This document shows positions 111-15,170 of a stretch of DNA of 15,209 nt, piece after piece (the stretch's first letter is position 1; every line of letters starts with the position of its first letter). The stretch is from contig CAKMOY010000079.1 in assembly GCA_927911235.1 (NCBI GenBank), forward strand, positions 1-15,209, in the 5' to 3' direction. The stretch is from an uncultured Moraxella sp. (GTDB lineage Bacteria; Pseudomonadota; Gammaproteobacteria; Pseudomonadales; Moraxellaceae). The notes beneath the pieces are model-generated. The model saw only the letters and a list, made by a program, of their open reading frames with translations. It did not search any database and had not been told where the DNA came from. The translations under genes were made by a program, and so were the position numbers.

Positions 111-914
111 TTATTCTTCGTTATCCATTAACATTTGTTCGCTCATGCCAACGGTGTTAAAACCACAATCCACAAACAAAATCTCTCCTGTAATGCCACT
201 CGCCCAAGGCGATAACAAAAACAAACTCGCATTGCCGACTTCTTCTTGAGTAACATTGCGGTGTAACGGTGCGATTTTTTCGTTCATGTCTAACATTTTG
301 CGAAAGGACTTGATGCCACTTGCCGCAAGCGTTCGGATTGGGCCTGCCGAAATCGCATTGACACGAATGCCGTCCGCACCCAATGAACTTGCCAAATAAC
401 GCACGCTTGCTTCTAGGCTTGCTTTTGCCAAGCCCATGACGTTGTAATTTGGCAATACCGAAATACTGCCCTCATAAGTCAAAGTCAAAAGCGAACCTTG
501 ACGTTTTTTTAACAATTCACGACTTACCTTTGCCAGTGCCACAAAGCTGTAACTGCTAATATCATGGGCAATAGCAAAGCCTTCACGTGTGGTAACTTCG
601 GTAAAATCACCGTCCAACTGCTCGGCTGGGGCAAAACCAATGGCATGAACCACGCCATCAATGCCATCGCCCCAAATTTCGGCAATTTTATCAAAACACG
701 CCACAATATCACTATCGCTTGCGACATCGCATGGCAATACGGCAACGGCATTAAACGCCTCGCCTGCCATGTCCACACGTTTTTTGATTTTGTCATTTGG
801 GTAGGTCAAAATCAGCTCTGCCCCCTCTCGGTGCAGACTTTCGGCGATTGCCCATGCGATAGACAATTTGCTGGCGATACCTGTTACGACAAAGCGTTTT
901 CCTTTTAACAACAT
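111..914 (-). CDS. fabI: Enoyl-[acyl-carrier-protein] reductase (NADH), FabI
   Basis: FabI catalyses the last step of each fatty-acid elongation cycle in the cytoplasm, reducing trans-2-enoyl-ACP with NADH. The 267-aa product is the usual FabI length (about 260). The N-terminal nucleotide-binding segment [13 protein letters not shown] (residues 12-24) is the divergent Rossmann loop of enoyl reductases. The FabI catalytic arrangement is present, with Y147, Y157 and K164 matching Tyr146, Tyr156 and Lys163 of the E. coli enzyme. The C-terminal [14 protein letters not shown] is also typical of the family. The ATG at 914 follows a good ribosome-binding site (AAGGA). The gene stands alone, divergent from folE, with a terminator behind it. 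No lesion is visible. The divergent Rossmann loop and active-site spacing argue against a generic short-chain dehydrogenase. Confidence 0.96.
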
Positions 915-967
915 GGATTTTTCCTTATAAATTTGGTAAAATTGTCCGTTTTAGATTTAGCGGTAAA

Positions 968-997
968 TTAATATTAAAAATCAATATTAAAAATCAA
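968..997 (-). promoter_or_regulatory. Candidate sigma70 promoter of fabI
   Basis: Reading the minus strand, TTGATT (997-992) and TATTAA (973-968) are separated by 18 nt and lie about 55 nt upstream of the fabI start. The match to consensus is moderate and the region is very AT-rich, so this is a candidate only. Confidence 0.3.
971..996. repeat. Two tandem copies of a 13-bp unit
   Basis: The unit ATATTAAAAATCA occurs at 971-983 and again at 984-996 without a gap. It overlaps the candidate fabI promoter spacer. It could be a doubled regulator site or a simple duplication in AT-rich DNA. Confidence 0.6.
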
Positions 998-1134
998 AGC
1001 TAATGTTTAAAAACAAACAAGGGTTGAGTTTTAGGCAATTGATAATTTTTTCATATTATCTTTAGCAAAAATCACTTTACAAATTTTTTTAAAACGTTAA
1101 GCTATGCCTAATTTTTTGAAAGGTTATATTGTAC

Positions 1135-1686
1135 ATGAATAATGCAGAAGTTTACAGTCATTTAATCGCTTCAACGGGCGAAGACTTGAACCGTGCGGGT
1201 TTGTTAGATACGCCAGAGCGTGCGGCAAAGGCGTTTTCGTTTTTGACACAAGGCTATCATCAAAGCCTTGAAGAGATTACCAATGGGGCGATTTTTCCGA
1301 CTGATAATAATGAGTTGATTTTGGTAAAAAATATTGAGTTTTACTCTATGTGTGAGCATCATATGTTACCGTTTTATGGGGTGGCTCATGTGGCGTATTT
1401 GCCAAATGATAAGGTGATTGGTTTGTCAAAAATGGCTCGGATTGTGGATATGTACGCTCGCCGTTTGCAAATTCAAGAAAATCTGACCAAGCAAGTCGCT
1501 CAAGCTGTGATGGATATGACAGGGGCAAGGGGCTGTGCGGTGGTGATGGATGCGGCACATATGTGCATGATGATGCGTGGGGTGATGAAACAGCAGTCTA
1601 GCACTCGCAGTATTTCGCTGTTGGGTGAGTTTAAGGATAATGCTCAAGCTCGGCAAGAGTTTTTGATGACGATTCCAAATCCTTAA
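1135..1686 (+). CDS. folE: GTP cyclohydrolase I, FolE
   Basis: FolE converts GTP to 7,8-dihydroneopterin triphosphate, the first committed step of folate synthesis, in the cytoplasm. From the ATG at 1135 the product is 183 aa. The zinc and active-site residues are visible: C73, H75 and H76 in [12 protein letters not shown], and C144 in [11 protein letters not shown]. The C73-C144 spacing of 71 equals that of Cys110-Cys181 in the E. coli enzyme. The helix [17 protein letters not shown] is a family signature. An in-frame TTG at 1129 sits 5 nt after AAAGG, while the ATG is 11 nt after it, so a start two residues further upstream is possible. I prefer ATG. The gene is single and followed by a strong terminator. 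It appears intact. Confidence 0.95.
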
Positions 1687-1805: not shown

Positions 1806-2862
1806 ATGTCAAAAAACTTATTAAACCTACTACACCATCACAACGCCAAACCCATTATCCAAGCTCCGATGGCAGGCGTGCAAGACAGCAAACTTGCCAT
1901 CGCCGTCTGTCAATCTGGCGGTGTTGGTTCGCTACCGTGTGCGTTGATATCACTTGAAAAAGTAGAACAAGAAATCAACGCCATTCGCACCGCTACCGAT
2001 ATGCCGTTTAACGTCAATTTTTTTTGCCCATAAAAACCCAGAATACACCGACAGCGTTCACCAAAATTGGCTAAAAACCTTACAACCGTATTATGACAAA
2101 TTACAAGTTGATAACCAAAATATCCCTTTAACAGGCGGTCGCAAACCGTTTGACAAAGCCCAAGCCGAACTGATTGCCGAGTTAAAAGTTCCGATTGTCA
2201 GTTTTCATTTTGGCTTGCCTGATGATAATTTGTTAAATATCGTTAAACAATCAGGTGCAAAAATCTTATCAACCGCCACCACGATTAACGAAGCCAAATT
2301 TTTAATCAGTAAAGGCGTGGACGGCATTATTGCTCAAGGGCTAGAATCTGGCGGACATCGTGGCATTTTCTTGGATAAGGATTTAACCACGCAAACAGGC
2401 ACATTTAGCCTTTTGCCAAACATTGCTAAATTGTTAAAATCTAGCAACAGCGATATTATGCTGATTGGTACAGGCGGGATTAGCGACTCGGCGACAGTAA
2501 CATCGGCATTTGAGTTGGGGGCGGATTTGGTGCAGGTTGGCACAGCGTTTTTGCTCGCTGATGAGTGCCTTACCACGCAAGCCCACAGAGCCATGCTCCA
2601 AAGTGAACAAGCACAGCATACCGCTTTAACCAATATTTTTAGCGGTGGTATTGCTCGTGGTATCGTTACGCCGTTGATGGCAGAGTTAGGTTTTATCAAT
2701 AATACGGCTCCCGATTTTCCCAATGCGTCTTTTGTGTTAAATCCGCTAAAAAATGCGGATAATCAGACGTTTTCATCATTTTGGGCAGGGCAAAATGCAC
2801 CACTTGCCAAAACAGGCTCGGCAAAACAGATTATTGAGAATTTATTCACAAATAATAACTAA
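1806..2862 (+). pseudogene. Nitronate monooxygenase (2-nitropropane dioxygenase-like), one frameshift
   Basis: This is an FMN-dependent TIM-barrel enzyme of the nitronate monooxygenase family, which oxidises toxic alkyl nitronates such as propionate 3-nitronate. The ATG at 1806 follows AAGGAAA. The first frame (1806-2033) has the N-terminal strand IIQAPMAGVQ and SGGVGSLP. It stops just after an eight-T run (2018-2025). Reading resumes one frame over (HKNPEYTDSVHQNW...) to 2862. The second part holds QGLESGGHRG with the expected catalytic histidine, the phosphate-binding GTGGI, and GADLVQVGTAFL. Removing one base, either from T8 or from the CCC at 2028-2030, restores a protein of about 351 aa, normal for the family; the CCC repair gives NFFCHK, which I recall as the more usual family sequence. 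Convergent with rluD. Either a read error or a genuinely inactivated gene. Confidence 0.87.
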
Positions 2863-2865
2863 ATG

Positions 2866-2891
2866 TTTAACAAATTAAGTTTTTTGTTAAA
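2866..2891. terminator. Weak bidirectional hairpin between convergent genes
   Basis: TTTAACAAA (2866-2874) and TTTGTTAAA (2883-2891) form a perfect 9-bp but AT-rich stem with an 8-nt loop. It overlaps the 3' end of rluD and follows the monooxygenase stop codon. The location suits a shared terminator, but the stem is weak. Confidence 0.4.
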
Positions 2892-3959
2892 TTTTGCTCA
2901 AACATTTCAATCAACGCCAACATATCATCTGGCATAGATGCTTGAAAAATCATCTCTTCGCCTGTTTTTGGGTGAACAAAACCCAACTCAAAAGCGTGCA
3001 ACGCCTGTCTGCCAAAGTTTTGTACTTGCGATTTTTCATCGTCATTTAAATATTTTAACAGCATGGCGGTACGTCTCGCCGAACCATAAACAGGGTCGCC
3101 AATCAACGAAAAGCCAAGATTTGACAAATGTACACGAATTTGGTGCGTTCGCCCTGTTTCAAGGCGTACGCTTACCAAACTGACCCCTTCAAAAATTTCA
3201 TCAATATTATCAAGATGAGTAACGGCAGGCTTGCCTGTCGCCACGACTGCCATTTTGGTGCGTTGCGTTGGGTGGCGACCGATTGAGCCTGTGATAGTTT
3301 TATGCTTTATCAATTCACTTTTGCTCGCCAACACCAACGCTTGATAATGGCGGAATACCGATTTATCTTTTAATTGATTGGTTAAATGAAGTTGACTTTG
3401 GCTGTCTTTGGCAACGACCATTAAGCCTGTGGTTTCCTTGTCAATACGATGAACAAGCCCTGCTCTCGGCAATAGTCGGCTATTTGGATAATGATAAAGC
3501 AAGGCATTGACCAACGTCCCCGAATAATTGCCCGCCCCTGCGTGAACCACCATGCCCGCAGGCTTGTTAATTACCAATACTTGTTCATCTTCATAGACAA
3601 TATCAAGCGGAATGTTCTCTGGTAAATCGGCTTGTTGTTCGGCAGGCGTGGCATTTAATTGTAAAATATCGTTTGGTTTTAGACGGTATTTTGGTTTTTC
3701 GGTTTTGCTGTTTACCGTTAATTCACCTGTGGCAAGCCATTCTTTGATTTGTTCTCGTGAAAACTCGTCAAAAGCTGATGTGGCGATTTTATCAATGCGT
3801 TCTCCCACGTCTGTGTCGGTTACGTGGTAATTTTTGGATTGCTTGGGCTTGATGGTTATCAATGTCATTATTTTCATCATTTTCATCATCATTGTCAAAA
3901 AAATTGTCAAAATCATTTGTGTTATTGTTAAAATTTTGTTGAAAATTGTCATTTTGCAT
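2867..3959 (-). CDS. rluD: 23S rRNA pseudouridine synthase, RluD family
   Basis: RluD isomerises uridines in helix 69 of 23S rRNA (1911, 1915 and 1917 in E. coli). An S4 RNA-binding domain (VGERIDKIATSAF...VNSKTEKPKYRLK) is followed by the synthase domain with LVHRIDKETTGL, whose Asp is the catalytic residue, then GRTHQIRVHL and IGDPVYG. The open frame of the synthase runs back to an ATG at 3952 with no ribosome-binding site, and its first 40 residues are an odd Met/Ile-rich string. The ATG at 3959 has GGA 8-10 nt upstream but is in another frame, where it encodes an Asn/Asp-rich leader up to about 3830. Removing one A from the A5 run near 3833 would join the two (NHQAQAIQNYHVTD) into about 363 aa. 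I therefore place the start at 3959, with a probable indel. RluA or RluC are alternative family members, but the long form fits RluD best. Confidence 0.87.
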
Positions 3960-3995
3960 GGTTTTTTCCAAAAGGTTTTTAAAAATAGATTTAAA

Positions 3996-4025
3996 AGTAT
4001 AACGTATCATGATAAACTTAGCGAA
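3996..4025 (-). promoter_or_regulatory. Candidate rluD promoter
   Basis: The minus strand shows TATACT (4001-3996) about 37 nt upstream of the ATG at 3959, with a poor -35 (TTCGCT) 18 nt further upstream. A 10-bp palindrome TATCATGATA (4005-4014) sits in the spacer. Evidence is weak. Confidence 0.25.
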
Positions 4026-4099
4026 ATTTTTTTACGATATTTTTTACAACACTTAATTTTTTAAGATGTTAGGGTAATTTTTTACCAACGAGGTTATTT

Positions 4100-5155
4100 A
4101 TGCGTGCAATGATAAAAGTAACAAGTTTGTCGTTATTAACAGTGGCAATGATTGGCTTAAACGGTTGTCAATCGTTAAAATCCAAACCATTATTTGGCAA
4201 AAAAGACGAAGTAAAAGCCGTCAAAGCCGAAAACAGCGAACAAGGCTACTATAACGAAGCCCAAAATAATCTAAGCAAAGGCAACTATGCCAAAGCGACC
4301 GCCAATCTAAACGATTTACGCACCTTTTACCCTGTTGGCGAATACAGTGAGCAAGCCCTGCTTGACTTGATGTATTCACAATACCAACATGGCGACTATT
4401 TGGACGCTGTTGCCAGTAGCGAAAAATTTATTCAGCTATATCCGACCAATCCACAAGTTAGCTATGCTTACTATGTGCGTGGCGTTGCCAATATGCAAAC
4501 GGCATCTTCAGGCGTGTTAAAATATGCCAAATTAAACCCTGCACACCGTGATACAGGCTATTACAAATTGGCATTTAGCAACTTTCAAGAACTGATTGCC
4601 AAATACCCAAGTAGCCAATACGCCCCCGATGCCGCCCAACGTATGCGTTATATTTATAACCAATTTGCCGAAAGTGAAATGCAAGCGGCTCGTTGGTATA
4701 TCAAACGAAAAGCCTACCTTGCATCGGCAAATCGTGCCACATGGGTATTCCAACACTATCCACAAACCCCAGTCGTGCCAGAGGCGATTGCCACCATGGC
4801 ATATAGCTATGACAAACTTGGTATGACCGATACCGCCAATCAGTACAAACAATTATTAAAAATCAACTATCCAGACTTGTTATCAAGTGATGGCAACGTT
4901 TTGTTGGAAAATACTCGCAGTGCAGGTGATTGGCTCAACAAATTAAGTTTTGGTGTATTGGGTAAAAGCGAAAAAAATCAAGTAAACGACAGCAATACAA
5001 CAGGCAATACCGCAACCAAACCGCAAGTCATTCAATTAGTGCAACAAGCCATGCAGCTACAATTAGCCACCACGCAAGCAGAAAATGAACAATTGCCAGA
5101 AATGACCCATCCTAAAAAAGTCAATCTTGGTTTAGGCTTGCCAGAAGAGCAATAA
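4100..5155 (+). CDS. bamD: Outer membrane protein assembly lipoprotein BamD (ComL family)
   Basis: BamD is the essential lipoprotein of the BAM complex, which folds beta-barrel proteins into the outer membrane from the periplasmic face. The N-terminus is a lipoprotein signal peptide with lipobox LNGC, acylated Cys at residue 23. Five TPR-like helical repeats follow, starting with YYNEAQNNLSKGNYAKATANL and including YPVGEYSEQALLDLMYSQY and YPSSQYAPDAAQRM, all hallmarks of the family. At 351 aa it is about 100 residues longer than E. coli BamD; the extra part is a C-terminal Gln/Asn-rich tail (about 290-351) with no domain I recognise. The ATG at 4100 is 6 nt after ACGAGG; an ATG at 4109 is a less likely alternative. 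The gene is intact and transcribed divergently from rluD. Confidence 0.93.
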   Translation: MRAMIKVTSLSLLTVAMIGLNGCQSLKSKPLFGKKDEVKAVKAENSEQGYYNEAQNNLSKGNYAKATANLNDLRTFYPVGEYSEQALLDLMYSQYQHGDYLDAVASSEKFIQLYPTNPQVSYAYYVRGVANMQTASSGVLKYAKLNPAHRDTGYYKLAFSNFQELIAKYPSSQYAPDAAQRMRYIYNQFAESEMQAARWYIKRKAYLASANRATWVFQHYPQTPVVPEAIATMAYSYDKLGMTDTANQYKQLLKINYPDLLSSDGNVLLENTRSAGDWLNKLSFGVLGKSEKNQVNDSNTTGNTATKPQVIQLVQQAMQLQLATTQAENEQLPEMTHPKKVNLGLGLPEEQ

Positions 5156-5180
5156 TTTTAACGGATTGTTTTAATAATCT

Positions 5181-5203
5181 TTCGACAAGCTCAGTGCGAA
5201 CGG
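5181..5203. repeat. Dispersed REP-like sequence
   Basis: The 23-nt sequence begins TTCGACAAGCTCAGTGCGAA and ends CGG. It has short complementary ends (TTCG/CGAA) and stands out by base composition in an AT-rich spacer. From memory, very similar sequences recur in intergenic DNA of many bacteria. Only one copy is present in this window. Confidence 0.55.
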
Positions 5204-5249
5204 AAAACCTAAAATAATTTTGTCCAGTTACTTAAAAAAAATAAAAGGT

Positions 5250-5286
5250 AAATAAAAGGTGTGAACAATTCACGCCTTTATTTGTC
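5250..5286 (+). terminator. Terminator hairpin between bamD and dnaG
   Basis: GGTGTGAA (5258-5265) pairs with TTCACGCC (5269-5276) around CAA, with one G-U pair. Flanking A-rich and T-rich tracts (AAATAAAA / TTTATTT) extend the stem. The T-rich downstream side fits termination of bamD transcripts. An in-frame GTG at 5261 lies inside this stem, so it is unlikely to be the dnaG start. Confidence 0.65.
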
Positions 5287-5317
5287 TTTGTTTAATCTGA
5301 ATAACCAAATCATCACT

Positions 5318-7633
5318 ATGAGCAATAACCACATCATTGAACAAATTATCAAACAAGCGGATATTGTCAAAATCATCGGCAAACACGTTGAACTCAAAAA
5401 GTCTGGCAATGAGTTTAAAGGATGCTGTCCGTTTCATGGCGAAAAAACACCGTCTTTTTTTGTCAATCCAGATAAAGGTTTTTATAACTGTTTTGGCTGT
5501 GGGGTCAAAGGCAACGCTTTAACTTTTTTAAAAGAATACGAAAACATGACCGCAGGCGAGGCGTTAAAAGAACTCTCTCGTCAAACAGGTATTGAACTTC
5601 CCAAAGAAAAACTTGATAAAAATCTGACCTATCAACGAAAACCAAAACAAACAAATAATCAATCTGGTAATGGTTGGGGTAATAACTCAAACAACTCAAA
5701 CAACTTAAATAACCTAATAATAATCAACAAAATTTTATACAAAATTTCAATGATGAATATTATCAAAATTTTCCACCCAATGTAGACAATGATAATTTAT
5801 CATCACAAGATATTCACGAAAATTTTCACCATCATTTTGACAATCAATCTGTTGATAACGATGTTAATGGGCATTTTGCTGATAACTTTTCTGATAACAC
5901 TGCCAATTTTTTGATTGAAGAGCAATCGGACGGTTCAAGCAGTTTGTACGATTTATTGACACAAGTTGCGATTTTTTATCAACAACAGTTGACAAAGAAC
6001 AACTTGGCAATGAATTATTTTAAAACTCGTGGTTTGACGGATAACACAATTGCGGATTTTGCGTTAGGCTATGCCCCAAGCGGTTGGCAACATTTGGAAC
6101 AAGCATTTCCACGAGATATTGACGGTTTAAAAATTTTGGGTTTAATTCGCACATCAGAAAAAGGCAGGGATTATGATTTGTTACGCAATCGGGTGATTTT
6201 TCCGATTCGTGATAATCAAGGGCAAGTTATCGGCTTTGCAGGGCGTGCAATGAATGATGACGATATGCCAAAATACGTGAATTCTAGCGATTCGCCTGTA
6301 TTTCACAAACAGCAGATTTTGTACGGATTGTATGAAGGTCGCCAAGCTCGTGCCAAAAATTGGCTCGTGGTGGAGGGCTACATGGACGTGATTAGCCTAC
6401 ATCAAGCAGGCGTGTATGGGGCTGTTGCATCTATGGGAACGGCGATTGCCACCAATCAAATTGACAAATTATTGCAATTAAATCCAGTTTTGACCTTGAG
6501 TTTTGATGGCGACAGTGCAGGTCAAAAAGCGGCTTGGCGTGCGATGGAAATGGGTTTGCCTGTGTTAAACGATGGCAAAGAGTTGCGGTTTTTGACTTTG
6601 CCAAACAATCACGACCCAGACAGCTTTGTCAAAGCCCACGGTGCGACCGCTATGCAACAACAAATTCACAATGCCATTTCGTTGTCGCAATATTTATTTT
6701 CGGTATTAAGCCAAAAATATGACGTAAAAAGTGCCGAAGATAGAAGCAAATTTTTAAGAGATATCTATGATTTAACCAAAAAATTACCCAAAGGTACTTA
6801 TGGTTGGTTGTTGCGTGAAGACATGAAAAACCGCTTGGGACTTGGGTTTAACAAAACCCAAAAAAATAACTTTTCCCAAGACGCTCTGTTAAATTTTCAC
6901 AATGAATTAAACACCGTTGTTGTTGTTACAGATGTGCTTTTTGTATCAACCCGAATTGTTAATCAACAGCGATTCACAAAGCCAAGCCACACCTTTTTTA
7001 TTGGAATATATTTTACTCGCATCAGGTGCAAATAAAGTTCCACTTTTTCATTCAAACATCAAAAAATCCGATTTACAACCGATTTATGATGTGAATGATG
7101 AAAATTATCAACCCACCGATGACGAAAAAAAATCGGAATATGCCAGAGTTGAACGTTTATTAAAAGCCGAAAGTGAATTAGAAATTCGCACGCAACAATA
7201 TTTTCAACAAAATCCTTTGCCAAATTTGACATGGCAAAGCGTGGTTGATGAGCAAACTTTGTCGCTCATTCAATGGATTGAAAAAGTGCAAAAAAATATT
7301 GATGATTTGCAAACATCACTGACAAAAAGCAATGCCAATGCTTTTGAAATCATCAATGCCAAAGCTCATTTTATCATGGCAGGCGTGTCAGCGGAACATC
7401 AGCAGTTGCTAATATCGCACTGGGTGAAATTTTTTGATGAACTAAGTCGGCGTGAAGTGACTGATGTGTCAAGTTTGGTAACAGAAATTTTAGCCAAACA
7501 ATTGTTGGACTGGGCGGATAATCAAATGGCGATTTATAGCAAGGTGAATGTACTGTATGTCAATTTGTTTAACAAACGCCATCAAGCCATTTATGAATGG
7601 TTTCAAAAATGGTTACAACAAAAAGTTAATTGA
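5318..7633 (+). pseudogene. dnaG: DNA primase DnaG, frameshifted twice as read
   Basis: DnaG makes RNA primers at the replication fork and is essential. From the ATG at 5318 the CHC2 zinc domain has C37, H40, C58 and C61 (CCPFH...YNCFGC). An Asn/Asp-rich linker follows. The catalytic core carries VVEGYMDV and the TOPRIM motif DGDSAG, where DGDRAG is more usual. The C-terminal helicase-binding part ends at 7633. The first frame change is near 5713, where one base is missing: NSNNSNNLNN continues as PNNNQQNF in the next frame. The second is near 6938-6942, where removing one T from T5 gives VLLYQPELL. Repaired length is about 771 aa, long compared with 581 in E. coli because of the linker and a C-terminal expansion. 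No Shine-Dalgarno is evident at 5318; the start is chosen by family alignment. Because the gene is essential, read errors are the likeliest cause. Confidence 0.9.
5684..5719 (+). repeat. Degenerate 9-nt tandem repeat in dnaG linker
   Basis: Four units run in register with the reading frame: AACTCAAAC twice, then AACTTAAAT and AACCTAATA. They encode Asn-rich triplets (NSN, NSN, NLN). The first dnaG frame change falls in the last unit, so this is a plausible slippage site. Confidence 0.65.
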
Positions 7634-7646
7634 GCATTTTAAAAAT

Positions 7647-8961
7647 TTAGACTATCGTAATTTGTTTGTCTTGAAACATATTTAATTCAGGGGCAAGCAC
7701 CTTCATAAAACGGTCAAAATATAACAACTGTTTGGTTAAAAGGGTAAAATCTCGGGGAAAATGAATGCCGTGGCGTTTTCCCACTTCAAAAATTTCCAAC
7801 ATCATTTGATTAATTTCATCGGAATGGTCTTTTAACTTGGTCGTATCCAATTTATCAATGGTTTTGCCAATAAATAAACTGTCTTTGGCAAGTATTTTTT
7901 TCATTACCCGTTGTAAATCTGCGGACAAAACCGCTTTATTCACCAAATTTTGTTTATCTGTCATGCCTATTTCAATCATATAATGAGCCATGCTATCGTA
8001 ATCTTCTCGGCTAAAACTGTCCATCATCATCACGCACGCTTGCCACGCCTTTGGCTCAAGTTTGCCGACAATACCAAAATCAATAAAGCCAATGCGACCA
8101 TCGGTCAATAACATCAAATTGCCCGCGTGCAAATCTGCATGAAAACTTTCACACATCGTAAGGCTGGCAAGCCAAGTATTTAACGTATCCACCATGACTT
8201 CACTTGGACTTTTACAATACTGTCGCATGGCAACATCATCAATCATGGATACGCCAAATAATCGCTCCATCACCAGCACTTTTTGTGTGCTTAAATCATG
8301 ATAAACTTTTGGGGCAACGACTTTTTGATTGTTCGTTTTTTGCAGAAAATCTTGAAAATCATCAATGTTTTTGGCTTCTTGTAAAAAGTCAGTTTCTGCC
8401 GACATTCGCAGACGGATTTCATCAATAATCGGCGAAATACTGGCAAATTTTAAACTCGGTGCTAATGTATCCATGATTTTTGTCGCACCATACAACAAAC
8501 CCAAATCCGTTTCTATAATGGTATCAACATTGGGTTTTTGCACCTTTAATACCACATGGTCGCCATTTTTTAACACCGCAGAATGGACTTGGGCGATAGA
8601 TGCTGATGCCAAAGGCGTTTTGTCAATACTGATAAAAATATCCTCTAGCGTTTTTGCCTTTTTTTGCCAATTCATTATTTAGTATATCTTCAATATAACT
8701 GTATGGCAAAGGCGTGGTTTGGTCAAGGCAGGCTTGAAATACTTCCACATATTCTCGTGGAAAAAGTGATGGCGTACTTGCGATAAATTGCCCGATTTTG
8801 ATATAGGTCGTGCCAAGTTGCTCAAATGTATCTTTTAACAAATAAGCGTCCATTTTTTCGCCTTTGGCAACTTTTAAGCATGTTAAACCTGCAACAGTGG
8901 CGGTCTTGCCTACTCGTTGAATGACATTGAATGATTTTTTTAATAAAGTGGGTTTTAACAT
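7647..8961 (-). pseudogene. ABC1/AarF/UbiB-family atypical kinase, one frameshift
   Basis: This family has a protein-kinase-like fold with ATPase activity. UbiB supports ubiquinone synthesis, while other members have unclear roles. Repaired numbering gives the KxGQ motif at residues 55-58 (YIKIGQ), the Ala/Ser-rich loop ASASIAQVH (118-126), K139 in VVLKVQKP, HADLHAGN (D276, N281) and IDFG (D294). The reading frame breaks at a T7 run (plus strand 8659-8665). Removing one base joins NNELAKK directly to AKTLEDIF, giving about 437 aa. Canonical UbiB is about 546 aa and has two C-terminal membrane helices; this protein ends without them, so I leave the symbol blank. The ATG at 8961 follows AAAGAG. 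It is the last gene of a minus-strand operon behind a MoeB-like gene and a tiny ORF, convergent with dnaG. Confidence 0.86.
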
Positions 8962-8986
8962 TTTTTTACTCTTTAATTTTAAATAA

Positions 8987-9082
8987 TTAGGCGGTTAAAA
9001 ACTTGCCAATACGCTTGATAATACATTGGTCTAATTCTTGTTCGATTTTTTCAAGCTCATCATTCGGGTTGATTTGTATCAT
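8987..9082 (-). CDS. Putative 31-aa protein, translationally coupled to the MoeB-like gene
   Basis: A short ORF starts at the ATG 9082-9080. It overlaps the stop codon of the upstream MoeB-like gene as ATGA and is preceded by GGAGGTGAACT, the strongest ribosome-binding site in the window. It encodes 31 residues, starting MIQINPNDELEKIEQELDQ and ending RIGKFLTA. The sequence is charged, has one Cys, and is predicted to be helical with no signal peptide or membrane segment. It does not end in Gly-Gly, so it is not a MoaD/ThiS-like sulfur carrier substrate. The Shine-Dalgarno also encodes the last residues of the upstream protein (GGEL), so part of its strength could be chance. I do not recognise a family. 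It may be a real small protein or a coupling leader for the kinase gene 26 nt downstream. Confidence 0.5.
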   Translation of the reverse strand: MIQINPNDELEKIEQELDQCIIKRIGKFLTA

Positions 9083-9874
9083 AGTTCACCTCCACAAATT
9101 GAACAATTAAGGTCTTTTTTAAACTTTAACTTGCGTAACGACAGCGTTTCCCCTTGCCAAAGCAACAAGGTTTGAGCAATCGGATTTTTGTTTAACCCCA
9201 AAAATGTCAAAGCTACTTGTGCCTGTAAATTTCCCATAATCTGCGTGGTACTCGCAAGTACACCACTAGTCGCACACGTTCGGCTATCATCGCCTTCGCC
9301 ATGAAACAGACAATGATAACAACCTGAATTTTTATAAGGTTCAAATAATGCCAACTGTCCTACTTGTGCAATGCCTGAAGCGGATAAAAGTGGTAAATTT
9401 TGCTTGACAGCGATTTGGTTAATGTGGTCTCGTGTTTTGAAATTGTCTGTACAATCACAAATTAAGTTAAAATTGCTTAGGCTATTTTTATTAAATTGTT
9501 TTACAATCTCTTGGTAATTGTCTAATGTTAATCGCTCTTGAAAAGCAAATACTTCACAAAAATCATTGATTTTATTTAATTTTTCTTTAGCAATTAACGC
9601 TTTTGATTTACCAATATCATTTGGGGTAAATAGTGATTGGCGTTGCAAATTACTTTCATCAATCACATCATCATCAACGATAACCAACTGCCCTACTCCT
9701 GCTCGGCATAAGGTTTCAGCCAATGGACAACCCAGTCCACCCATACCGATAATTAACACGTTACTGTTTTTTTAAGTTAGTTTGAGCGTCAATATCCCAG
9801 CCATCAAGCAAAATTTGGCGGGCGTAACGAAGCATTTCTTGATCGTTTAAGGTGTTAAATGGTTGATTTAACAT
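9079..9874 (-). pseudogene. MoeB/ThiF/HesA-family E1-like adenylyltransferase, one frameshift
   Basis: Members adenylate the C-terminus of ubiquitin-like sulfur carriers (MoaD for molybdopterin, ThiS for thiamin). The N-terminal part (ATG at 9874) contains LNDQEMLRYARQILL, a family signature. It stops at an A7 run (T7 on plus, 9767-9773). Deleting one base gives NLKNSNVLIIGMGGLGCP and a 264-aa protein, close to the 249 of E. coli MoeB. Visible motifs: ATP loop GMGGLG (43-48), NLQRQ (R78), DCTDN (D142), zinc pairs C185/C188 (CYHC) and C257/C260 (CSIC), and C200 in TCATSGV. No moaD or thiS lies nearby, so the carrier cannot be named. It is the first gene of a minus-strand operon with the 31-aa ORF and the ABC1 kinase, behind a good extended -10 promoter. 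Confidence 0.87.
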
Positions 9875-9898
9875 TTGTTTGCCTGTATAAAAAAGCTA

Positions 9899-9927
9899 AT
9901 TATATCACAAAAAATGCACTATAAAAA
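9899..9927 (-). promoter_or_regulatory. Extended -10 promoter of the MoeB-like operon
   Basis: The minus strand reads TGATATAAT: a consensus TATAAT (9904-9899) with the TGn extension, 25 nt from the ATG at 9874. The -35 position (TTTTTA, 9927-9922) is weak, as is usual for extended -10 promoters. Confidence 0.6.
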
Positions 9928-9951
9928 ATGGGATAGATTGCCTACCCCATT
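9927..9951. terminator. Hairpin terminator, mainly minus strand
   Basis: AATGGGATAG (9927-9936) and CTACCCCATT (9942-9951) form a 10-bp stem with one G-U pair and a 5-nt loop. On the minus strand it is followed by six T. It ends transcription from the remnant genes upstream and insulates the MoeB-like operon. Confidence 0.7.
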
Positions 9952-9958
9952 CTTATTT

Positions 9959-10264
9959 TTAAGTGCTTCTGCACCGATTGGCATTGCCCCTTGCGTTGGT
10001 GCGTTTGGTAAGATGATTTGGCTTTTTGCATAAAGTAGCCGTCTGCCTTTGGCAGATATTGCTTGGGTTTAAAAACATGATATAAAGGTTCATGCCAAAA
10101 CGAGTGAACATCATGGTTTCTTCAAACAATATTGCCAAATCTTCTCGTGCATTATAAAAACTGTACAAATCCACGCCTTTGTCATTAAAGAACCATTGCC
10201 CCACTTGGCTTGATGTCAGACTTTTTTGGTAGCTGTTTGCGGTGCTACCTGCATAAGATACCAA
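9959..10264 (-). pseudogene. C-terminal fragment of an unrecognised protein, decayed
   Basis: A minus-strand open frame without a proper start encodes a plausible protein segment, including SQVGQWFFNDKGVDLYSFY and NAREDLAILFEETMM. It runs to about 10080 and then degenerates into low-quality sequence (NPSNICQRQTATLC). Another frame then looks more protein-like (ILPNAPTQGAMPIGAEALKN) up to the terminator, so at least one further indel is likely. The 5' end runs into the integrase stub at about 10260 in a different frame, which suggests a rearrangement joint. The acidic NAREDLAILFEE stretch might be part of a metallopeptidase-type helix, but I see no HExxH and do not assign a function. It has its own terminator, consistent with the tail of a once-complete gene. 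Confidence 0.5.
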
Positions 10265-10389
10265 GTTTTTGTGCCACTTGTTGCAACATTTAAAATTAAA
10301 CCGCCACCGTCATACAGGCGGTATGGCTTTTCTTTTGGTTTAGCCTTATCAACTTCTGTGGCTGTGAGTGGGCGAGTTGTGATAGACAT
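10216..10389 (-). pseudogene. Tyrosine-recombinase (P4-type integrase) N-terminal remnant
   Basis: The ATG at 10389 opens a 57-codon frame. Its first 44 residues match the arm-type DNA-binding N-terminus of P4-like integrases (DUF4102): PLTATEVDKAKPKEKPYRLYDGGG, then the strand LILNVATSGTKTW. After Trp43 the sequence (YLMQVAPQTATKKV) no longer looks like integrase and a TGA follows. The catalytic R-H-R-Y domain is absent, so the stub cannot recombine DNA. It lies about 130 nt from the 3' end of a tRNA-Leu gene, the classical target for this integrase class, and marks a former integrative element. Quoted runs are short excerpts; the identification rests on the KAKPKEKPY...LYDGGGL pattern. Confidence 0.75.
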
Positions 10390-10435
10390 GACAGTAAAAA
10401 TCCTGTGGATTGACAGTAAAAATTAAAATTACTGT
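10389..10435. repeat. Repeated TGACAGTAAAAA motif upstream of integrase stub
   Basis: TGACAGTAAAAA occurs at 10389-10400 and 10411-10422, a 22-bp period that places both copies on the same helix face. An inverted partial copy (TTACTGT) is at 10429-10435. The first copy overlaps the integrase start codon. This arrangement suits integrase arm sites or an autoregulatory operator, but that role is inferred. Confidence 0.5.
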
Positions 10436-10453
10436 AGACAAATTAAGATAATA

Positions 10454-10488
10454 AAAAACCCCAAAACCTTATAGGTTTTGGGGTTTTT
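10454..10488. terminator. Strong bidirectional terminator after tRNA-Leu
   Basis: A perfect 15-bp stem (AAAAACCCCAAAACC at 10454-10468, GGTTTTGGGGTTTTT at 10474-10488) encloses a 5-nt loop. The T tract on the minus strand terminates tRNA-Leu transcription about 32 nt beyond its CCA end. Confidence 0.9.
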
Positions 10489-10519
10489 AGACTATCCAAT
10501 ACAAGTTAAGATAGATTAG

Positions 10520-10606
10520 TGGTACCAGTGGTCGGACTCGAACCGACACGCTTTTAAAGGCATCGGATTTTGAATCCGACGTGTCTACCAATTTCACCAC
10601 ACTGGC
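10520..10606 (-). tRNA. tRNA-Leu (anticodon CAA)
   Basis: The minus strand folds as an 87-nt class II tRNA. The acceptor stem is GCCAGTG/CACTGGT with a G-U first pair. The D-loop contains TTGGTAGAC. The anticodon stem TCGGA/TCCGA encloses TTCAAAA, so the anticodon is CAA, reading UUG. A long variable arm follows, then the T arm with GGTTCGAGTCC, discriminator A and an encoded CCA. It has its own promoter and terminator and flanks an integrase remnant at its 3' side. Confidence 0.96.
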
Positions 10607-10640
10607 ATAAGTGGTTAAGCTTGTTTGCTTATGAGTGCGT

Positions 10641-10668
10641 ATTATAGCAGGTAAAATAAACTTTGCAA
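10641..10668 (-). promoter_or_regulatory. Sigma70 promoter of tRNA-Leu
   Basis: Minus-strand TTGCAA (10668-10663) and a consensus TATAAT (10646-10641) are separated by 16 nt. The -10 ends about 35 nt upstream of the mature tRNA 5' end. Confidence 0.8.
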
Positions 10669-10772
10669 GCATTATTTTTTTAAAAAAAGTGATTTTTTTT
10701 ATATTTTTTTGAATATTTTAATTTTTTCATGCCGATTCGTGCATTTGTATGGTATTTATTTTTGCCAAATTT

Positions 10773-10781
10773 TGCTATGAT
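10773..10781 (+). promoter_or_regulatory. Candidate extended -10 promoter of zapE
   Basis: TGCTATGAT combines a TGn extension with a 5-of-6 match to TATAAT, about 50 nt upstream of the zapE start codon. No good -35 is seen 17 nt upstream. Confidence 0.45.
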
Positions 10782-10831
10782 AGGGCGTTTCACAAACAAA
10801 TGACAAAATATTTTAAAAAATAGGATTTTAC

Positions 10832-11956
10832 ATGACCTTAAGCCCATTACAACATTATGAACAAGCCTTGCAATCAGGCAATTTTAGCGAAGACAGTCAG
10901 CAACGCCAAGCGATGACTTATCTTGACAATGTCTATCACCAAATTGTCCAAGGGCGTGAGAGCCAAAAAGGATTTTTTAGTTTTTTAAAACGTTATGAAG
11001 CGCCCAAAGGCTTGTATATGTGGGGCGGTGTCGGTCGTGGCAAGACGTGGATGATGGATATGTTTTTTGACAGTTTACCAAATGACCGCAAAATGCGACA
11101 ACATTTTCACCATTTTATGAAACGTGTTCATCATGAATTAAATCAGCTAAAAGGACAAGCCGACCCGCTACAAAAAGTTGCCGAAATTATTCATAACGAA
11201 GCGGACGTGATTTGTTTTGATGAATTTTTTGTGTCCAATGTGTCTGATGCCATGATTTTGGGCGATTTGTTTACCATGCTGTTTAACAAAGGCATTACGC
11301 TGGTCGCCACATCCAACATCGCCCCTGATGGCTTGTACAAAATGGGATTCATCGAGATAGATTTTTGCCTGCGATTGAAGAAGTCAAAAAAAAATACTAC
11401 CGTGATGAATATTGATGCTGGCATTGATTATCGTCTGCGTGTGTTGCAACAAGCTGAACTGTATCTGTCGCCTTTGACCGCTGATAATCAAAATTGGCTT
11501 AAAGAGCGATTTGAAGCGTTAAGCCAAAATCAAACCGTTCAACATACGCCGATTGTCATTAATGGGCGTAAAATTCCTGTGACTGCCAAAACCGAAACGA
11601 TTTTGCATTGTGATTTTAAAGCCTTGTGCATGACCCCACGTTCTGCAAGCGACTTTATTGAAATTGCCAATCAATTTTCTACCGTGTTGGTGGACAATAT
11701 TCCAGCTTTGACCGATATGATGGCAGACCCGACACGGCGTTTGATTTATTTGGTTGATGAATTTTATGACAGACGTGTTAAGCTACTCATGCGTGCCGAA
11801 CAGCCGATTTTAGAGCTGTATCAAGGGCAAAAATTGGCGTTTGAAATTGAGCGAACTCGCTCTCGTTTGTTAGAAATGCAGTCAAAAGATTATTTGGCAG
11901 AACCACACCGTCTTGATGAAAATTCTCATAATGACAAAGCCAACGATGAAATTTGA
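10832..11956 (+). CDS. zapE: Cell division protein ZapE (AFG1-like ATPase)
   Basis: ZapE is an AAA-type ATPase that associates with the FtsZ ring in E. coli and is related to mitochondrial AFG1/LACE1. The 374-aa product matches the family length (375 in E. coli). Walker A GGVGRGKT is at 65-72, Walker B VICFDE at 126-131, and sensor TSN at 160-162. The ATG at 10832 is 6 nt after AGGA. Residues 171-187 are anomalous: they replace the conserved NG..R.RFLPAI segment that carries the arginine-finger region. Reading one frame over gives KNGIHRDRFLPAIEEVKK. One A appears missing at 11339-11342 and one extra in A9 at 11386-11394, so the frame is lost and regained. The ORF stays open but would encode a damaged ATPase if real. 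Confidence 0.93.
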   Translation: MTLSPLQHYEQALQSGNFSEDSQQRQAMTYLDNVYHQIVQGRESQKGFFSFLKRYEAPKGLYMWGGVGRGKTWMMDMFFDSLPNDRKMRQHFHHFMKRVHHELNQLKGQADPLQKVAEIIHNEADVICFDEFFVSNVSDAMILGDLFTMLFNKGITLVATSNIAPDGLYKMGFIEIDFCLRLKKSKKNTTVMNIDAGIDYRLRVLQQAELYLSPLTADNQNWLKERFEALSQNQTVQHTPIVINGRKIPVTAKTETILHCDFKALCMTPRSASDFIEIANQFSTVLVDNIPALTDMMADPTRRLIYLVDEFYDRRVKLLMRAEQPILELYQGQKLAFEIERTRSRLLEMQSKDYLAEPHRLDENSHNDKANDEI

Positions 11957-12002
11957 CAAAATTTGCAATTTATAAAATTTAACAAACAAATAAAATCTTT
12001 GT

Positions 12003-12102
12003 AGAGAAAGTTTGCAAAATAAGCTAAAATAAACGGTTGTATTTCAACCTATTAATCATTTTGCAAACTTGCTCTTTTTTTGTTGATTTAAAACAAAAAA
12101 AG
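12003..12102 (+). promoter_or_regulatory. Nested inverted repeats upstream of metK
   Basis: AAGTTTGCAAAAT (12008-12020) and its exact complement (12058-12070) form a 13-bp stem. It is extended by AGAG/CTCT (12003-12006, 12072-12075) across one mismatch. The 37-nt loop holds a small hairpin GGTTG-TATTT-CAACC (12035-12049). A seven-T run follows, as in an intrinsic terminator. The T run can instead pair in CTTTTTTTGTT (12074-12084) with AACAAAAAAAG (12092-12102), an 11-bp alternative stem. This could be the zapE terminator, or an attenuator in a metK leader. A possible extended -10 (TGATAATAT, 12111-12119) downstream favours the terminator reading. The remaining 77 nt to metK show no other structure. 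Confidence 0.55.
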
Positions 12103-12196
12103 TGACTTTCTGATAATATTTTTAACTTATATATTTAAAAATTGTTAAGAGATAGGTTTGCAAAGCGATTAATTCTTTTTTTAAAGGAAAATTAAT

Positions 12197-13366
12197 ATGC
12201 GTGAATATTCACTCTTTACTTCTGAATCAGTGAGCGAAGGACACCCAGACAAACTGGCTGACCAAATTTCCGATGCGATTTTAGATGCGATTTTAGCCGA
12301 AGATTTGCATGCTCGTGTAGCGTGTGAAACTTTGACAAAAACAGGTGCGGTGGTGTTGGCAGGTGAAATTAGCACCACGGCAAATGTAGATTTTGAAAAA
12401 ATCGTGCGTGATACGGTCAATCAAGTGGGCTATAACCACAGTGATTTGGGCTTTGATGGTTCAACTTGTGCGGTGATTAATATGATTGGCAAACAATCAC
12501 CAGAAATCGCCCAAGGCGTTGATAGAACTAAACCAGAAGAGCAAGGGGCTGGCGACCAAGGTTTGATGTTTGGTTATGCCAGTCACGAAACGGACGTGTT
12601 AATGCCTGCCCCTGTGCAATTTGCCCATCGTTTGATGGAAAGACAAGCCGAATTGCGTAAAAATGGCAAATTAGCGTGGCTTCGTCCAGATGCCAAAGCC
12701 CAAGTAACTGTGCGTTATGATGGGGTAAAACCTGCTTTTATTGACGCATTGGTACTATCAACTCAGCACAATCCTGACATTTCCCAAAAAGATTTGCACG
12801 AAGCGGTGATGGAAGAAATCGTCAAAGCCGTCATTCCTAGTGAAATGCTTCACAAAGACACCCAATATCATATTAACCCAACAGGTTTATTCGTCATTGG
12901 GGGTCCTGTGGGCGATGCGGGTTTGACAGGACGTAAAATTATCGTAGATACTTATGGCGGTATGGCTCGTCATGGTGGCGGTGCATTCTCTGGCAAAGAC
13001 CCATCAAAAGTTGACCGTTCAGCGGCTTATGCAGGGCGTTACGTTGCCAAAAATATCGTGGCGGCAGGGCTTGCCGACCGCTGTGAAATCCAAGTCAGCT
13101 ATGCGATTGGCGTTGCCGAGCCGACTTCTATTTCGTTAAATACCTTTGGCACAGGCAAAATCGCTGATGACAAAATTATTGAACTGGTGCGTGCACACTT
13201 TGACTTGCGTCCATATGGCATTACCCGTATGCTAAATTTATTGCAACCGATGTATCAACAAACCGCCAGTTACGGGCATTTTGGACGTATTGGTTCAGAA
13301 ACTGCCTTTACATGGGAAAAAACTGACAAAGCCGAAATCTTACGAGCAGAAGCAGGTTTATTATAA
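12197..13366 (+). CDS. metK: S-adenosylmethionine synthetase, MetK
   Basis: MetK makes S-adenosylmethionine from methionine and ATP in the cytoplasm, releasing phosphate and pyrophosphate. At 389 aa it has normal length and appears intact. Visible signatures are SEGHPDK near residues 13-19 (active-site His16), GAGDQG at 117-122, and the P-loop-like GGGAFSGKD at 260-268. The C-terminus GHFGRIG...FTWEKTDKA is typical. The ATG at 12197 follows AAAGGA at a good distance. A DUF3144-type gene starts 15 nt after its stop codon with no terminator between, so the two are probably co-transcribed. Confidence 0.97.
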
Positions 13367-13381
13367 TTTTTAGGAAAAAAC

Positions 13382-13718
13382 ATGACTGACAAAAACCAAT
13401 CCCCAAGCCCAACACGACAACGAATTAACAGACGAAATGCACACTTTTTATGAACGTGCAGACGCATTTATCAACCTTGCCAATCAATTGCGTGATGACA
13501 AAAACCATGCAGGCAAGGTCAATGCGTCCATGCTTTACGCAGTCGCTCGCTTTAGTGCGTGGGTGGCGGCGACTGGTTTTGTCAAGGGCAGTGATTATGC
13601 CAAAGAAAAAGACGATATTATTGCACATTTCACCAAAAATTTTGAACGAATGTTGTCTGATAATATTGATGATTATGCTGAAAATTTTCAAACCTATATG
13701 CAAATTGGTAAAAAATAA
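13382..13718 (+). pseudogene. DUF3144-family protein, frameshift near the N-terminus
   Basis: The family has no established function. The ATG at 13382 follows AGGA 15 nt after metK, but its frame stops after 23 codons. From 13401 another frame gives QAQHDNELTDEMHTFYERAD, then FINLANQLRDDKN, VNASMLYAVARFSAWVAATG and a C-terminal DDYAENFQTYM. This pattern of two helices around an Ala-rich SA..YA.AR.(N/S)A.VAA stretch is what I remember of DUF3144. Removing one base from A5 (13391-13395) or C4 (13401-13404) gives a protein of about 111 aa. If the first ATG is not used, the ATG at 13437 would give 93 aa without a good ribosome-binding site. It is small and acidic, with no signal peptide or membrane segment. 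It probably shares a transcript with metK. Confidence 0.75.
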
Positions 13719-13767
13719 TACCTGTTTTGGTTAAACAAATCTTGGGTAAAAACAAAAGGAAAAGCCA

Positions 13768-14757
13768 ATGTTTATTCATGTTACCACACTCACCGACTAC
13801 CTAGCCGAACACCACACCACTCCTGCCGTCAAAAGTGTGATTGCCACCATCACCCACGCCTGTGAAGAGATTAGCGAGCTGTTAAAACGTGGGGCATTAG
13901 CAGACATTTTGGGCGAAGTCGGCAACCAAAATGTACAAGGCGAAGAGCAAAAAAAATTGGACGTGATTGCCAATGATTTATTATTAAACGCCCTAAGTAC
14001 CAACAAATATTGTGCAGGTGTGGCATCTGAAGAGCTTGATAACTCAACCCCTGCCAATCCAAATGGTGAAGTATTGGTATTGTTTGACCCACTAGACGGT
14101 TCAAGCAATATTGACATTAATATGGCGGTGGGGACGATTTTCTCAATTTTACCTTATAAAAATCAAGGCTTTACTGCAACTGACAATGACTTTTTGCAAA
14201 AAGGCACGGAGCAATTGGCATCAGGCTATGTGCTGTATGGCACGTCCACAATTTTGACTTTGACGACTGGCGAAGGCGTGGTGATGTTCACTTACGACCC
14301 AAATTTGCACCAATTTATCCTAATCCAAGAGGACGTAAAAATTAGCCCAGACACCAAAGAATATGCGATTAATGCGTCAAATTATCGTTATTGGTTGCCA
14401 CCGATGCAACGTTATATTGATGAGTGTAACGCAGGTGAAACAGGCGTGCGTGGCAAGGATTTTAATATGCGGTGGATTGCGGCGATGGTGGGCGATGTAC
14501 ATCGTATTTTGATTCGTGGTGGGATTTTTACTTATCCGTTTGACACCAAATTTGCCAATAAAGCAGGCAAGTTACGTTTGATGTACGAAGCCAATCCGAT
14601 GAGTTTTATCATTGAGCAAGCAGGTGGGGAGAGTACCGATGCCGTTAATCGTATTTTGGATATTGAACCGACTAACATTCACCAACGTGTGCCTGTGGTG
14701 TTGGGTGCGAAAAATGAAGTGGAGTATGTAAAAAAGTTGCATGAAGAAATGCAGTGA
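13768..14757 (+). CDS. fbp: Fructose-1,6-bisphosphatase class 1
   Basis: This enzyme hydrolyses fructose 1,6-bisphosphate to fructose 6-phosphate in gluconeogenesis, in the cytoplasm with Mg2+. The 329-aa length fits class 1. The metal-binding residues are visible: EE at 88-89 in ASEELD, and [10 protein letters not shown] from 107 (D107, D110). The C-terminal [20 protein letters not shown] region (split here for reading: KLRLMYE, then ANPMSF, then EQAGG) binds the sugar phosphate. The ATG at 13768 follows AAAAGGAAAA. The frame is intact. Moraxellaceae generally rely on non-sugar carbon sources, so a gluconeogenic role is expected. The next ORF overlaps its 3' end by 17 nt. Confidence 0.96.
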
Positions 14758-15170
14758 TTTCACGCCTTTTCAATGGGAACTTGCGATTACCGCTAGTCGT
14801 TTTGAACTCGGTTTATTAACTAATGATGAAATAATTGCCTTTACTCATAAACTTATGGATAAAGGCTTTTATGATGATGTCATGATTGATATTATTGATG
14901 TTAAACCTTTTAATGAAATTAAAGATAACTTTAAAAACCTAATTAACAAATGAAATCTACCAAAAATCAATCATAATGACAGCCGTTATTTTAATACACT
15001 TTATTTGATTTATCCTTTTACAATCCACCCTTTAAATCTTAATTATTTTGATAAAGATAATTTATTTTATTGGGAATATTATTTATCAAAAGAATATGCT
15101 GATAATGCCGTTTTTGATTTTTTTAATTGAATGCGAAAATTGGCTAAATCGTAACAAAAATAAATCCTAG
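14741..15170 (+). pseudogene. Unrecognised AT-rich gene with in-frame stop and frameshift
   Basis: The ATG at 14741 lies inside the end of fbp. The frame encodes a 70-aa helical-looking segment (FTPFQWELAITASRFELG, LLTNDEIIAFTHKLMDKG) and stops at TGA 14951-14953. The same frame then stays protein-like for 58 codons (NLPKINHNDSRYFNTLYLI, FYWEYYLSKEYADNAVFDF). Removing one base from the T7 run at 15118-15124 continues it as DFLIECENWLNRNKNKS and a stop at 15168-15170. The repaired reading is about 142 residues, interrupted once. GC content is far below that of fbp. No ribosome-binding site is clear at 14741. Size, helical character and composition recall small immunity-type proteins, but I cannot name a family. 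The remaining 39 nt hold no supported gene. Confidence 0.5.

Follow-up and report, generated by a model that had tools for sequence, protein, structure and literature searches.

Residual homopolymer insertions and deletions (indels) are described in long-read assemblies (PMC8812927, in the portion available), and in an uncorrected nanopore draft fewer than 0.05% of bases were in error, most of the indels being false deletions, according to the accessible part of PMC12007338. Frameshifted housekeeping genes are also described from a living endosymbiont, Blochmannia vafer, in which dnaG is frameshifted in a homopolymeric tract and may be corrected by slippage (PMC3017870, in the part of the text available). 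The stretch analysed here, referred to as the window, comprises 15,209 bases from an uncultured Moraxella sp. (contig CAKMOY010000079.1); five of its 12 mapped genes, dnaG among them, together contain seven robust frame breaks. The window is like uncorrected long-read assemblies, as far as those two accounts describe them, in that single-base, homopolymer-enriched indels split conserved genes, and its break rate (0.06% of coding bases) is of the same order as that given for the nanopore draft. It is also like B. vafer in having frameshifted housekeeping genes, including dnaG, that are otherwise in frame; in the available text on Blochmannia, however, the genomes are extremely AT-biased and their indels, some of them common to several species, are located in poly-A/T tracts, whereas several of the window breaks lie in short runs and none was common to the genomes examined. 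Most or all of the breaks are very probably single-base consensus errors left in the draft assembly of an ordinary Moraxellaceae genome. This explanation, already proposed in a first-pass annotation of the stretch, is supported by isolated steps of plus or minus one base at a density resembling that of a nanopore draft as partially described in PMC12007338, by an excess of steps in homopolymers and by intact near-identical copies of the affected genes.

To detect frame breaks, the window was first searched by tblastn with 773 open reading frames (ORFs) of at least 60 amino acids, drawn from six relatives (14 loci). The closest relatives were M. boevrei (Faucicola boevrei in the taxonomy listing) and M. 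macacae, with 84% and 83% metK DNA identity respectively, and the four others were at 78-79%; the genus comparison set is small, at six genomes, and in a family-wide metK search of 348 genomes (344 with a match) none outscored these six. A change of frame within the protein was detected in the genes for nitronate monooxygenase (NMO), rluD (with one reference), dnaG (twice), an ABC1 kinase and a MoeB-like protein, while fabI, folE, bamD, metK and fbp were each read in a single frame throughout. A protein-to-DNA alignment tolerant of frame steps agreed with tblastn and added two compensating steps in zapE. This alignment was rerun at frameshift penalties of 12, 18 and 30; the broken genes had 31 protein references (two for NMO, seven each for dnaG and ABC1, six each for the MoeB-like gene and rluD, and three for zapE) and the unbroken genes six, with one reference only for each of fabI, folE, bamD and metK. 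The NMO of M. boevrei, which is itself broken, was excluded as a reference from both rounds of this alignment. Seven breaks were called by every reference at all three penalties: one in NMO, two in dnaG, one in ABC1, one in the MoeB-like gene and two in zapE. Five of these steps have an extra base and two lack a base. The first-pass annotation had listed all seven, together with breaks in rluD, a DUF3144 gene and the last gene of the window; the signal in rluD was weak.

Protein searches were performed against 5.8 billion clustered proteins, and the best 120 matches for each query were retained. Three near-identical proteins, designated P0243 (DnaG), P0121 (ABC1) and P0001 (ZapE), were recovered, and the comparison with intact copies covers these three genes and was made at the protein level. 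All three proteins were read in one frame at the five testable break sites (5/5). The first-pass annotation had named recurrence of the same indels in independent isolates as an outcome that would refute its reading, and the opposite was observed. On identities of 96-99%, the three proteins would belong to the same species as the window, and intact forms of the genes would thus be present in other sequences of that species. Among the matches listed, the next best for zapE and ABC1 were at ~79-82%. None of the listed matches was a near-identical fragment that stops at one of the window's breaks; this negative is weak, since clustering at 90% could hide such a fragment and the length limits of the dnaG protein search would exclude the window's own dnaG pieces. 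Where a near-identical protein exists, it was used to set the break interval.

The dnaG gene, encoding DNA primase (5318..7633, forward strand), has two breaks, located with P0243 at ~5713-5719 and ~6909-6911. As the linker is not conserved, references place the first anywhere from ~5658 to ~5775; with the distant reference L053 it resolves into two steps at penalties 12 and 18. P0243 is 98% identical over the main segment (810 amino acids, 22 members, one contig) and spans both sites in one frame, and dnaG was intact in all six relatives. P0243 has seven in-frame residue differences from the window and is without four codons found just upstream in the window, and it therefore probably comes from another strain. 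These four codons, which include a stop, lie within 5228-5275, just upstream of dnaG, and probably represent a small strain difference.

The ABC1/UbiB-type kinase gene (7647..8961, reverse strand) has one break, at ~8648-8656 when placed with P0121 and between 8646 and 8664 across references; three of the seven references gave extra or differently placed steps at penalty 12. P0121 is 99% identical (437 amino acids, 14 members, 18 contigs) and crosses the break in one frame, and the gene was intact in 6/6 relatives. The zapE gene (10832..11956, forward strand) has two compensating breaks, at ~11338-11344 and ~11385-11393, and is out of frame between them. P0001 (96% identical, 374 amino acids, 10 members, one contig) is in frame at both, and apart from the out-of-frame stretch it differs from the window at just two single residues. 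In the MoeB/ThiF-like adenylyltransferase gene (9079..9886, reverse strand), which matches Pfam ThiF, one break was called at ~9768-9773 by all six references. The NMO gene (1806..2862, forward strand) has one break at ~2018-2026, with Pfam NMO matches on both halves.

To assess the density of breaks, the same procedure was applied with one reference each to 55 orthologues from the six relatives, representing 58,696 aligned bases. These comprised three relatives for fabI, folE and NMO, two for zapE and fbp, and six for each of the other seven genes; the control regions are those around a few anchors, and the relatives are species representatives whose quality may exceed the average. Two steps were found, both in M. 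boevrei: the first is in NMO, and the second, which is probably spurious, precedes the start of the rluD ORF. The window has seven breaks, or eight with rluD, in 12,607 coding bases, against one or two in the control. The excess was significant both when the spurious-looking step was dropped along with the window rluD (7 versus 1, P = 3.7e-5) and when it was kept (8 versus 2, P = 3.1e-5). The window breaks are isolated single-base steps in unrelated genes, at a far higher density than in the relatives.

Codon-position differences were determined on either side of the breaks in NMO, dnaG, ABC1 and the MoeB-like gene, using M. boevrei as partner, or another relative for NMO. Third positions differed most on both sides of all these breaks; in ABC1 the first, second and third positions differed at 18/13/38% on one side and 17/9/38% on the other, and the C-terminal part of dnaG was less constrained (45/26/56%). 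This pattern reflects long-term divergence, and very recent breakage is compatible with it.

The sequence context of the steps was only partly homopolymeric. With rluD included, three of eight steps lie in runs of at least seven bases (P 0.0003) and five touch runs of at least five (P 0.001). For the seven robust steps, assessed in fixed-width windows, the values were 3/7 in runs of at least seven (P 6e-5 to 3e-4) and 4/7 touching runs of at least five (P 0.002 to 0.007). The sites in NMO and the MoeB-like gene and one of the two in zapE lie in runs of 7-9. At the two dnaG breaks the adjoining runs are only 2 and 3 bases long, and at the other zapE step the run has 4; for ABC1 it has 5 when the break is placed with P0121, although reference L002 puts the break nearer a run of 7. 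The suggestion in the first-pass annotation that the breaks usually fall in homopolymers is therefore confirmed in part and not for every site, and its list of runs is corrected accordingly. Its statement that removal of a base is usually the repair agrees with the 5/7 steps carrying an extra base, an excess which demonstrates no significant bias (P 0.45).

Consensus error would account for these observations if the base caller or consensus step miscounted bases, most often where A or T is repeated 7-9 times, with some miscounts in short contexts as well; every miscount would shift the reading frame, and both halves of the gene would stay those of a working protein. The real DNA of the strain would then match the intact copies, with read error as the cause. 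Several observations weigh against this explanation. P0243 and P0001 each rest on one listed contig, and the near-identical copies were compared at the level of protein clusters. P0001 is not a flawless witness, as it has two odd residues in its N-terminal part, one of them in the ATP-binding loop, at which the window agrees with P0002-P0004; these are possibly errors in P0001 itself. At three of the seven breaks the run is no longer than 4 bases. Of the 14 runs of at least seven in the coding map, 11 are unbroken. The M. boevrei NMO carries a break of its own. Finally, extra bases outnumber missing bases by five to two, unlike the majority of false deletions in the draft of PMC12007338, as far as its available text goes; with seven steps this is not significant, and owing to the difference in direction no sequencing platform is named here.

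Of the other explanations, the one that survives best overlaps with consensus error, and holds that the NMO break is real decay while the others are errors; this is unlikely, but deserves more weight than the remaining alternatives. The frame break in the M. boevrei NMO (L001, ~6046-7046), which leaves two open frames of 256 and 88 amino acids, is at another position in the gene than that of the window, and the M. boevrei gene also has gaps. Close NMO homologues were found in 3/6 relatives and none in the other three. The window NMO break could therefore be real. The window gene is nevertheless conserved on both sides of the break, with third codon positions differing most, and its break falls in a long run of the kind that often attracts consensus errors. 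The first-pass annotation had argued that real decay would not leave both halves of each protein so well preserved; conserved halves do fit consensus errors, and for NMO the case is weaker than stated there.

That all the breaks are real, recent mutations, producing young pseudogenes, for example because the strain acquires indels at a high rate, appears improbable. Mutation, too, normally produces indels in A/T runs, and NMO is dispensable, being frame-broken in one relative and without a close homologue in half of them. Against this, the near-identical DnaG and ZapE proteins are intact, as is dnaG in all six relatives, two independent breaks in dnaG together with a compensating pair in zapE are hard to square with a living lineage, and five mapped genes have no break. 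No break common to relatives or isolates was found among the 55 orthologues of the six relatives or in P0001, P0121 and P0243.

It is less probable still, to the point of being very remote, that the frameshifts are real and are corrected by transcriptional slippage, ribosomal frameshifting or phase variation. In an equally remote version of this reading, recoding or polymerase slippage would work even in short runs, so that the cell could live with many frameshifted housekeeping genes and with a primase gene shifted twice. Slippage in homopolymeric tracts is known in AT-rich endosymbionts, including for the B. vafer dnaG (PMC3017870, in the part available), and the three window sites in runs of 7-9 would suit it. 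Deletions in Escherichia coli transcription are reported, in the accessible text of PMC5574713, to be independent of homopolymers, which keeps short contexts possible in principle. The long poly-A/T tract associated with slippage was present at only those three of the seven breaks, and not at either dnaG site, in ABC1 or at the second zapE site; as the dnaG breaks are outside long tracts, slippage is unlikely. Furthermore, no break was common to relatives (6/6 for dnaG, ABC1 and the MoeB-like gene), and the GC content of the window, 34-43% per kb, is not the extreme AT bias of the endosymbionts. Recoding or slippage was accordingly rejected, given runs of 2-3 at the dnaG breaks and a dnaG read in one frame by 6/6 relatives. 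General decay of the genome was also rejected, since five of the 12 mapped genes are unbroken, the steps are isolated and single, and three of the broken genes have near-identical copies that are intact.

Three further genes were less clear. In rluD (2867..4010, reverse strand; NCBIfam RluA-family match) a possible N-terminal break at ~3830-3842 was called by 4/6 references at penalty 18 and 2/6 at penalty 30, and at penalty 12 references L002 and L053 gave extra or differently placed steps; the N-terminus is poorly conserved. The DUF3144 gene (13382..13718, forward strand) has an intact conserved domain and an uncertain N-terminal start. None of three references called a frame step here, and the in-frame stretch upstream of the domain is without a usable start, so from the reading frames a break is rated only as likely. 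The last gene (14741..15170, forward strand), hypothetical and without a Pfam match, resembles a single M. boevrei ORF at 31% identity, in a match that runs across an in-frame stop ending at 14953, and is not interpretable; at so low an identity, the step called near 15,065 was dismissed as noise.

The window otherwise has an ordinary gene content. No frame break was detected, by frame-step alignment or tblastn, in fabI (reverse strand) and folE (forward strand), which occupy 111..1686, nor in bamD (4100..5155), metK (12197..13366) and fbp, encoding a class 1 fructose-bisphosphatase (13768..14757), all on the forward strand. A transfer RNA gene, tRNA-Leu (10520-10606, reverse strand), lies close to an ORF of 57 amino acids (10216-10389, reverse strand) that matches the arm DNA-binding domain of integrases (Pfam Arm-DNA-bind_3) and is probably a relic of an integrated element. 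A perfect inverted repeat of 16 bases with a 3-base loop, terminator-like in form, is located at 10454-10488, ~30 bases past the 3' end of tRNA-Leu. The 23-base motif TTCGACAAGCTCAGTGCGAACGG, which we take to be a widespread short repeat, has one copy in the window, at 5181-5203, where none was expected, and was absent from the 61 loci fetched. No match was found between the whole window and plasmids or between the dnaG region and E. coli genomes, and P0121 had no relative among viral contigs.

The first-pass annotation had also reasoned that no living cell can do without dnaG. This argument alone is not decisive, because B. vafer lives with a frameshifted dnaG, as described in the available text of PMC3017870. 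Essentiality and homopolymer context are poor arguments on their own, and near-identical intact copies provide a stronger test. The caution urged in that annotation is upheld: the contig serves as a quality warning, and claims of gene loss, pseudogenes or phase variation drawn from it are unreliable.

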